A program made the translations under genes and the position numbers. Below, one piece after another: positions 24,283-26,682 of a stretch of DNA of 26,682 bases. Each line of letters begins with the position of its first letter. Positions within the stretch are counted from its first letter, which is position 1. Below the pieces are notes generated by a model, which saw nothing but the letters and a program-made list of their open reading frames with translations, had not been told where the DNA came from and made no database searches. Source of the DNA: a virus. The stretch is taken from IMG/VR virus record IMGVR_UViG_3300009515_000020, positions 1 through 26,682 of that record. One strand, given 5' to 3'.

Positions 24283-24309
24283 ATAAGGTGACGCGCCGCG
24301 TCACCTTAT
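24283..24309. repeat. dispersed palindrome, copy 1 (longest arms)
   Basis: ATAAGGTGACGCG, centre C, CGCGTCACCTTAT: 13-bp perfect arms around the 17-bp core GTGACGCGCCGCGTCAC (24288-24304). It can form a stable hairpin or bind a dimeric protein. A TATGAGGCACTAGG direct repeat (from 24256 and 24307-24320) precedes this copy and the next, so the pair arose by duplication of a unit of about 40-50 bp. Confidence 0.85.
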
Positions 24310-24325: not shown

Positions 24326-24344
24326 GGTGACGCGCCGCGTCACC
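24326..24344. repeat. dispersed palindrome, copy 2
   Basis: GGTGACGCG, centre C, CGCGTCACC: 9-bp arms, identical core to copy 1, 39 bp downstream. It lies about 25 nt upstream of the 269-aa gene start. Confidence 0.85.
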
Positions 24345-24369: not shown

Positions 24370-25179
24370 ATGGCTACCGACAAGAACGCAATCCCCAAGC
24401 TAGTGACGACCTGGGCGGGCAACCTCGCGAAAGCGGCCGGCGAAGCGGAAACGCTCGGCGCCAAGTCGGCGACCCGCATCATTGACGAACTGGCGAAGGC
24501 CGGCGAGGCGTTGGCGAAGGCCGGTATCGTGGTCGACAGCCCGGCCTTGAAGAGGGCACTCTTCGACCCGATGTTGGATGCTCGCCACGTCGCGAGTGGC
24601 GAAACGGCGCGCAAGCCTCGCTATTACGAGGCAACGCTCGTCGTGACGCGCTACGCGGAGGTCAAGATTGCCTCCGAGTACGCGGAAAAGGTTCACGCCG
24701 CCAACGCCGCCGACCTCAAATCGGGAAAGGGTGTGGGCGACTTGACCTACAAAGCGCTCAGGTTCCTGAGGAAGTGCGAGACGTCTAAGACCCGCCCGAC
24801 CCTGGGCGGGTTCCGGGAGGAACTTGGCGTCACCCCGGAAGCGCTGGAGAAGCGCGCCAGCGACGAGGCTACGGCGAAGGCCGAGGCCGAGGCGTTGAAA
24901 AAGTTGTCGCCTCAGGAGCGCTTCGCCAGGACCCTGGCCGAGAGGTTCGGCGGCGACGGCTTCGACCAGAAGTCGGTGCAGGCGGCGCTCGCCGCCGTCC
25001 GCGCGATCAAGGACGTCGCCAAGGTGAAGGCCGAGGCGAAGGCCGAGGCGAAGGCCGAGGCCAGCGCGCCGGTCACGCTAGATGAGATCATCGAACCGCC
25101 GGCGGCACAGTCTCAGGCTGAGCTAATCGCTCAGGTGGTGGCCCAGGCTGTGACAATGGCGCTCGCCGCCAGGAAGTGA
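24370..25179 (+). CDS. hypothetical Ala/Lys/Glu-rich protein of the early region (269 aa)
   Basis: ATG 24370 follows AAAGGAAA at suitable spacing. The N-terminal 60 residues are helical and Ala-rich (LAKAAGEAETLGAKSATRII). A compact middle domain (about 80-165) includes YYEATLVVTRYAEVKIASEY and DLTYKALRFLRKCET. The C-terminal part is a charged coiled coil with a KAEAKAEAKAEA run (about 219-231) and an amphipathic tail. No catalytic motif was seen and no family recognised. The stop codon TGA lies inside palindrome copy 3, and a strong terminator follows, so this is a single-gene transcription unit downstream of the repeat-rich control region. Confidence 0.8.
   Translation: MATDKNAIPKLVTTWAGNLAKAAGEAETLGAKSATRIIDELAKAGEALAKAGIVVDSPALKRALFDPMLDARHVASGETARKPRYYEATLVVTRYAEVKIASEYAEKVHAANAADLKSGKGVGDLTYKALRFLRKCETSKTRPTLGGFREELGVTPEALEKRASDEATAKAEAEALKKLSPQERFARTLAERFGGDGFDQKSVQAALAAVRAIKDVAKVKAEAKAEAKAEASAPVTLDEIIEPPAAQSQAELIAQVVAQAVTMALAARK
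25027..25062 (+). repeat. three tandem 12-bp repeats (KAEA)
   Basis: AAGGCCGAGGCG repeats three times in tandem (last copy ends GCC), encoding KAEA x3 in the 269-aa protein. A prime site for repeat-number change between relatives. Confidence 0.9.
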
Positions 25180-25192
25180 CGCGCCGCGTCAC
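25176..25192. repeat. dispersed palindrome, copy 3 (contains a stop codon)
   Basis: Exact core GTGACGCGCCGCGTCAC. Bases 25177-25179 are the TGA stop of the 269-aa gene, so the element is fused to the end of the coding sequence. Confidence 0.88.
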
Positions 25193-25196
25193 CAGG

Positions 25197-25240
25197 AAGC
25201 GACCCGACCGGGAGTTTGCCCGGTCGGGTCGCTTTCTTTT
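25197..25240 (+). terminator. intrinsic terminator after the 269-aa gene
   Basis: AAGCGACCCGACCGGG (25197-25212) pairs perfectly with CCCGGTCGGGTCGCTT (25219-25234) around loop AGTTTG, followed by a T-rich run TTTCTTTTGTGTTTT. A classic strong rho-independent terminator on the plus strand, 17 nt after the stop codon. Confidence 0.95.
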
Positions 25241-25301
25241 GTGTTTTGAGCACTCGGCCTTTTGATGATAGCGCTTAATGCTAGCTAAAGTGGTGCGCTC
25301 C

Positions 25302-25633
25302 AATTATCCATTTTCCTATCCAACAGGGGTCAAAAAATGGATAGTAAAATGGATAATTACTTATTTTCTCGTTCGTTTACGGGAACGAGGGCAATAATAA
25401 GATTTTGGCCCTCTAATTATCCATATTTTATGGATAATTAAAAAAAATGGATATGATAATGGATAATTGGAAACACCTGCAAAACTGCCATATATATATA
25501 AAATATCATCTAATTATCTATTATCCATGTTTTTCCGGAATATACTACGTAGAGGCAAAAAAGTTGGAGCCTCCAACTTTTTTAGCCTAAGGGGTCTTAT
25601 TCGGGAAAAAAAATGGATATTTGGATAATATAA
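25302..25633. repeat. TGGATA iteron array (ATGGATAATTA consensus)
   Basis: Sites in either orientation: 25302-25311, 25337-25345, 25349-25359, 25414-25424, 25430-25440, 25447-25455, 25459-25469, 25511-25521, 25521-25528, 25613-25620 and 25621-25630. Two pairs (25337/25349 and 25447/25459) repeat with a 12-bp period. 25414-25424 and 25430-25440 form a perfect inverted pair, TAATTATCCAT and ATGGATAATTA, with a 5-bp spacer. Confidence 0.85.
25555..25587. terminator. bidirectional terminator-like hairpin
   Basis: AAAAAAGTTGGAG, centre C, CTCCAACTTTTTT (25557-25583), with flanking GGC/GCC. The T-run on either strand makes it able to terminate transcription from both sides, insulating the iteron island from the downstream genes. 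Confidence 0.85.
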
Positions 25634-25687
25634 CCATTCTAAGGTATATCATGCCCACTGGAGTACCACCGAGATACAACCTACAGT

Positions 25688-25735
25688 ACGACCGCCAAAT
25701 GGCGCACCGGTCGTGCTTCCCATTCACGCGCCAAA
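25688..25735 (+). promoter_or_regulatory. structured leader of the coiled-coil membrane protein gene
   Basis: ACGACCG pairs with CGGTCGT across about 12 nt, and TGGCGC pairs with a distal GCGCCA in the same stretch, so two alternative hairpins are possible before ATG 25751. This could be a 5' leader with competing folds. It may instead be coding if translation starts at ATG 25651. Confidence 0.3.
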
Positions 25736-25750
25736 TCTGGGAGCATCCCA

Positions 25751-26070
25751 TGACGACCCTACAGCAAGTTACCGCCTTAACTAACGACCTCGTTCGTGTA
25801 AACGAGGAACTTTCTAAACTCGACCTGCAGCGCGACAAGCTGGTGACGCGCCGCGTCACCCTGCGTGACGCCATCGCCGAGCAGCGGCTCGCCCTGGATG
25901 GCGAGCTTGACGCCCTGGCCGGTTACGACACCGACCAGATCGTTTCCCCGCCCACCCGCGCGCCGGAGGCCACACTGGCGCTCCAGGGTAGACTTCTCAA
26001 TGCCGGCATGATCGTCGCTGGCATCGTCGTCGCGGTCGGCGTCGTCTTTGCCCTGGTCCACCCCGCCTGA
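25751..26070 (+). CDS. coiled-coil protein with C-terminal membrane helix (106 aa)
   Basis: I chose ATG 25751 (MTTLQQVTALTNDLVRVNEE) with GGGAG 6 nt upstream; ATG 25651 with TAAGG is possible, but the added residues look non-coding. Residues 1-50 form a charged coiled coil, and residues about 80-104 (LLNAGMIVAGIVVAVGVVFA) one membrane helix, giving a tail-anchored topology. Palindrome copy 4 lies in frame and encodes VTRRVT (about residues 32-37) within the coiled coil. Function unknown; an early membrane-associated phage protein is plausible. Confidence 0.75.
25842..25860. repeat. dispersed palindrome, copy 4 (inside a coding sequence)
   Basis: GGTGACGCG, centre C, CGCGTCACC, with core identical to the intergenic copies, lying within the 106-aa gene and read in frame as VTRRVT. 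Exact conservation inside a gene implies recent insertion or selection on the DNA itself. Confidence 0.88.
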
Positions 26071-26673: not shown

Positions 26674-26682
26674 GGTGACGCG
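26674..26682. repeat. dispersed palindrome, copy 5 (truncated by window end)
   Basis: GGTGACGCG, the exact left arm of the palindrome, is the last sequence of the window, 12 nt after the stop of the 167-aa gene. Its position matches copy 3 at the end of a gene, so a full copy probably continues outside. Confidence 0.7.

Follow-up and report, generated by a model that had tools for sequence, protein, structure and literature searches.

A candidate iteron replication origin in a phage fragment whose relatives encode a SaPI-Rep-like primase-helicase

What is the role of a short AT-rich island in an otherwise GC-rich phage genome, in which a single word recurs many times in both orientations? Such an island lies close to the right end of virus record IMGVR_UViG_3300009515_000020, a fragment of 26,682 bases that was analysed at its full length and is referred to here as the window. 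It has a GC content of 33.75%, against 61% for the whole record, and the GC content of 300-bp stretches across the record falls to its minimum here (30%, at 25331). A preliminary description had read it as a replication origin or a control element of a phage. The region is organized as follows.

24370 to 25179, plus strand: open reading frame of 269 amino acids left of the island, with no family match and no relative found
25194 to 25237, plus strand: terminator-like hairpin 3' of the preceding frame, then T-rich DNA (inverted-repeat search and terminator scan)
25241 to 25640, no strand: AT-rich intergenic island, GC minimum of the record, proposed replication origin
25301 to 25322, minus strand: iteron pair 1, tandem, 12 bp apart (sites 25310 and 25322)
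25337 to 25359, plus strand: iteron pair 2, tandem, 12 bp apart, inverted relative to pair 1 (sites 25338 and 25350; inverted repeat I2)
25414 to 25440, no strand: iteron pair 3, perfect inverted pair TAATTATCCATA-TTT-TATGGATAATTA, 12 + 12 nt (25414-25425 and 25429-25440; inverted repeat I11)
25447 to 25469, plus strand: iteron pair 4, tandem, 12 bp apart (sites 25448 and 25460)
25490 to 25524, no strand: most AT-rich tract of the record, with 30-bp windows at 90% A+T in a composition scan, proposed melting site
25511 to 25528, minus strand: iteron pair 5, TAGATA and TGGATA, 7 bp apart (motif matches)
25557 to 25583, no strand: 13-nt perfect inverted repeat in A/T runs, possible bidirectional terminator (inverted repeat I10)
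25613 to 25627, plus strand: iteron pair 6, 8 bp apart (sites 25614 and 25622)
25621 to 26070, plus strand: open reading frame right of the island, its likely start, as we infer, the ATG at 25750, with no family match (frame list and family search)

Between 25305 and 25627 the island holds 11 exact TGGATA sites, seven on the plus strand and four on the minus strand, beside a single TAGATA variant at 25515, whereas 2000 dinucleotide shuffles of its 400 bp gave a mean of 0.42 copies and never more than 5. Its best 8-mer is present in 7 copies, against a maximum of 4 in dinucleotide shuffles (n = 2000), and a search of the window with ATGGATAATTA, allowing up to two mismatches, returned 12 matches where 1.27 ± 1.20 were expected, nine of them inside the island. 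The earlier account of an AT-rich island with many TGGATA iterons is therefore borne out, as is the perfect inverted pair that it reported. The 12-bp period ascribed to the paired sites holds for three pairs (25310/25322, 25338/25350 and 25448/25460), while the remaining pairs are inverted or spaced 7-8 bp apart; the iterons are asymmetric and their spacing ranges from 7 to 12 bp. The AT tract is flanked by pairs 4 and 5, the latter overlapping the end of the tract, and more pairs lie farther out. Terminators had been placed on both sides of the island; the left one was recovered at the edge, while the stem-loop proposed for the right falls within the island, left of the last iteron pair, and was not flagged by a consensus terminator scan. 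Searches for tRNAs and Rfam families gave no match, nor did a DNA search of the island region against phage records. The exact pair ATGGATA-N5-ATGGATAATT found 20 matches in viral contigs, none with an island-like cluster and none in a contig encoding marker proteins of the group.

Detection of a portal/adaptor, a major head protein and a large terminase supports the view that the record belongs to a phage, and it is probably a fragment of a podovirus-like genome of about 60 kb. About 2.3 kb separate the end of the large terminase gene from the island, and the window stops just past the latter, ahead of the replication genes. A peptide-pattern search for relatives of the 269-amino-acid left frame and of the terminase found none. 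Among annotated phages, Rhizobium phage RHph_TM3_14A and its sisters come closest (capsid protein 65% and terminase 42% identical), with Pseudomonas phage Rollin a more distant relative; Rollin and RHph_TM3_14A are both about 61 kb in length. Searching viral contigs with the capsid protein returned at least 596 relatives. The long ones share a gene order in which leftward structural genes are followed by terS and terL (mostly rightward), a variable stretch, and a rightward cluster encoding an ATPase, a metallopeptidase-like protein, PolA, RecB-like and VRR nucleases, an SNF2 helicase and a primase-helicase of about 1000 amino acids. Two relatives appear in Bradyrhizobium draft genomes as separate contigs of 60,568 and 61,049 bases, in keeping with a prophage outside the chromosome or with phage DNA that was carried over. 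The 60.5-kb Escherichia coli plasmid record pSTEC648_2 (CP061838.1) has phage lysis genes and the same order of PolA, helicase and DUF927 genes, and is probably a phage-plasmid; a search of E. coli genomes with its DNA found no further copy.

In most of the relatives examined, too, the stretch from terL to the replication genes includes an AT-rich island. It is the GC minimum in 22 of 24 records, window included, a count that is partly circular since some islands had been located by their low GC. In about 16 relatives, short and often paired repeats are clustered significantly when compared with local shuffles, with tandem spacings of 7 to 12 bp and copies in both orientations. Measured against the refuting condition of the preliminary description, a lack of iteron conservation in relatives, the result is mixed: island and repeat architecture recur, while the word itself changes from phage to phage, with TTGTACAAT in G005, GGAAGTAT in G008 and G009, TCAAGTGTC in G019, TTAAGAATT in G007 and G012, ATCTACA in G017, TTTGCATA in Rollin and TGTAGCA in pSTEC648_2. 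The exception is G016, a genome that is circular by a 60-base terminal repeat and the only relative to share TGGATAATTA; its TGGATAATTA and TGGATCATTA sites are much like those of the window. G002 and G006, whose primase-helicases are sisters, have words that resemble each other, GACAATTA and GGACAGTTA. In the seven relatives where both parts were mapped the words are concentrated in one island, away from the primase-helicase gene, except for one stray copy within that gene in pSTEC648_2. The cluster of RHph_TM3_14A is weak (p = 0.068, shuffle test), and no clear cluster was found at the place examined in G001, G010, G011, G014 and G022. A short element near GAAATCATTG or TAAGTCATTG is common to the islands of G001, G005, G011, G015 and MN988472.1, whose iterons otherwise differ. 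A GC-skew check, proposed in the preliminary description, did not point one way: the global extremum lies within 5% of the island in 9 of 11 records, but with opposite signs among relatives, and gene orientation also switches nearby. In pSTEC648_2 the cumulative skew is lowest at the iteron island and highest on the opposite side, and gene orientation switches at the same places.

A search for an initiator gene found none in the 26.7-kb window, but all relatives of more than 52 kb have one DUF927 protein each, of about 970-1040 amino acids in the phages and 865 in pSTEC648_2, typically with a winged-helix-like domain at its C-terminus. Its AEP primase domain matches the PrimPol of S-2L (Z 16.4, rmsd 3.3 over 180 residues), and profile searches with the helicase part matched SCCmec Cch (5dgk), the best match, and 8tch, which is named SaPIBov1 initiation protein (Rep) in the Foldseek result. 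The structural model resembles SaPIbov1 Rep with a Foldseek E of 1.6e-5 and a Z of 10.2 over residues 405-982, but at an rmsd of 17.6; the helicase core was modelled with low confidence, the C-terminus with fair confidence and a winged-helix-like order of elements. SaPI Rep is reported to use its C-terminal domain to recognise the short iterons of its origin, and Cch to be a relative of SaPIbov1 Rep (PMC7581432); in primases of this type the winged-helix domain at the C-terminus may serve in origin recognition (PMC5862659). The similarity of islands follows that of the primase-helicases, with rho 0.43 (p 0.0025) for the C-terminus and rho 0.45 for the rest of the protein. Co-variation specific to the C-terminal domain is therefore rejected, the correlation being real but equal for both parts, and common ancestry accounts for it no less well than recognition. 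The protein of pSTEC648_2 lacks the C-terminal domain, though that record has repeats. The gene at 42239-45322 of MN988472.1 is annotated as a putative integrase and is actually a primase/DUF927 helicase; no integrase-family match was found in that phage, and a VapE-like helicase was found in none of 23 records. In many relatives a gene near the island, lying left or right of it, encodes a mostly helical protein of about 240 amino acids, the g28 family (for example L006:18372-19100 and L042:1791-2474). Members tested gave no Pfam, PHROG or fold match and no homologue was found in the window, and g28 was rejected as the iteron binder.

We consider it reasonably probable, at roughly two chances in three, that the island is the iteron replication origin of the phage, bound by a primase-helicase and laid out as in SaPI and other PICI elements, with the initiator gene roughly 20 kb away. 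By this analogy, the paired short iterons of the TGGATAATTA type would be bound by a phage-encoded protein whose gene lies outside the fragment and whose proposed parts are an AEP primase, a DUF927 helicase and a C-terminal winged-helix-like domain. Assembly of this protein on the iterons would melt the AT tract at 25490-25524, where, as suggested for it by SaPI Rep, it may then work as helicase and primase. By analogy we infer three things: such an initiator is also encoded by the window phage, the iterons are its binding sites, and copying begins at the island.

Several known systems resemble this arrangement in part. In phage P4 the alpha protein is a primase-helicase recognising short (type I) iterons at the origin, and replication needs a second site, crr; the likeness, iterons together with a primase-helicase, is one of general scheme. 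SaPI and PICI origins likewise have short iterons in both orientations beside an AT tract, always as two sets around an AT-rich region (PMC6092414), and the relatives encode a homologous helicase. The differences are that the Gram-positive PICI origin is immediately 3' of the initiator gene (PMC6092414), a position not seen in the seven mapped relatives, that primase and helicase are fused here, and that the element is a whole phage of about 60 kb instead of a satellite. SCCmec provides the DUF927 helicase Cch, the best profile match of the relatives' protein, and its Cch2 binds short direct repeats at a putative origin (PMC7581432); SCCmec is, however, an integrated cassette, and Cch2, whose repeats were the ones tested, comes from another helicase family. 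The iteron plasmids RK2, P1, F and R6K share direct repeats, initiator-bound in the plasmids, and an AT-rich region, but their iterons are of 17-22 bp in regular arrays (PMC4980987) and no RepA-type gene was found here.

The most serious competitor, which we regard as improbable though worth weighing, is that the iterons are operators, bound at several sites by a phage regulator where the early genes begin. The island is directly upstream of rightward frames, and of the region's four promoter-like matches three overlap with iterons, although these matches are weak (9 of 12 bases); in G013 and G015 an array of CTGGTCGTATC or TGTACAATG words lies near the downstream frame, beside the AT-rich repeats. 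These second arrays (G013 27855-28164, CTGGTCGTATCTGTACGA; G015 30440-30860, TGTACAATG-type) are possibly operators. The control-element half of the preliminary reading is weakened by a separate palindromic repeat, present in the window and in many relatives, that looks more operator-like than asymmetric iterons of variable spacing. In the window the GTGACGCGCCGCGTCAC palindrome has four perfect copies (24287-24305, 24326-24344, 25176-25192 and 25842-25860) and a half copy at 26674-26682, all within the last 2.4 kb and two directly upstream of the frame at 24370; they are possible repressor sites. The half copy stands at the contig end, and a repeat of this kind may explain why assembly stopped there. 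TTACC-N5/6-GGTAA or TTACTC-N4-GAGTAA is dispersed in many relatives and can reach 68 copies in a genome, whereas hardly any control palindromes of matched composition occur; TTACC-N5/6-GGTAA has 18 to 68 copies per record in MN988472.1, G001, G005, G011, G016, G017 and G026, and 10 of the 34 copies in MN988472.1 are intergenic, though only 10% of that record is non-coding. G014 has twenty TTACT-N5/6-AGTAA palindromes (mostly TTACTC-N4-GAGTAA) along its record, often 1-3 kb apart. Since the palindromes of the window and of the relatives look like repressor or stoperator sites, the asymmetric iterons are left for another role, an argument by exclusion and not proof.

The other readings are far less probable. 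A parS-like centromere of a phage kept as a plasmid, which we think very unlikely, would agree with the ParA-like proteins of G009 and G011, with ParB_N matches in G006 (above cut-off) and pSTEC648_2 (weak), and with the relative found as a contig of about 60 kb in a Bradyrhizobium draft genome. Yet most island-bearing relatives have neither ParA nor ParB and none was found in the window, itself a fragment; among the 12 longer relatives two have a ParA-like protein and one a ParB_N match over the cut-off. The ParA-like genes suggest plasmid-like maintenance in part of the group. The DnaA box is TTATCCACA, and the reverse complement TTATCCAT of the sites resembles it, so that the host initiator might start replication here; this too is very unlikely, as all sites read TTATCCA followed by T or A and never CACA, in departure from TTWTNCACA, and the relatives' words bear no relation to DnaA boxes. 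Scarcely more than a slight chance attaches to a pac/cos packaging site or other terminase target, for while the island is close to the large terminase gene in the window, relatives place it anywhere between about 1 and 8 kb from terL, with intervening genes.

The origin half of the preliminary reading is thus the best supported, in part and by analogy, by position, layout and the SaPI-Rep-like primase-helicase of the relatives. It is favored by an iteron cluster far beyond chance, by AT-rich islands at the same map position in relatives, by the presence of the DUF927 protein in all those longer than 52 kb, by the iteron type shared with G016 and the similar words of G002 and G006, and by the lack of ParA in 10 of 12 longer relatives. 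Counting against it are the missing initiator gene in the window and the position away from rep, the relatives with a weak cluster or none, the repeats of pSTEC648_2 beside a protein without the C-terminal domain, the opposite signs of GC skew, and island similarity that tracks the C-terminal domain and the remainder of the protein equally well.

Different words at the same island position suggest a private replication address for each phage. More broadly, and as a tentative proposal that we hold to be somewhat doubtful, these widespread, little-described podovirus-like phages of about 60 kb may carry origins built as modules, with a SaPI-Rep-like primase-helicase that diversifies jointly with its iterons and acts over roughly 20 kb, giving each phage a private replication code. 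If this is true, the code could decide incompatibility between co-infecting phages or satellites, and the many natural pairs of word and initiator would make the recognition code of such helicases testable.
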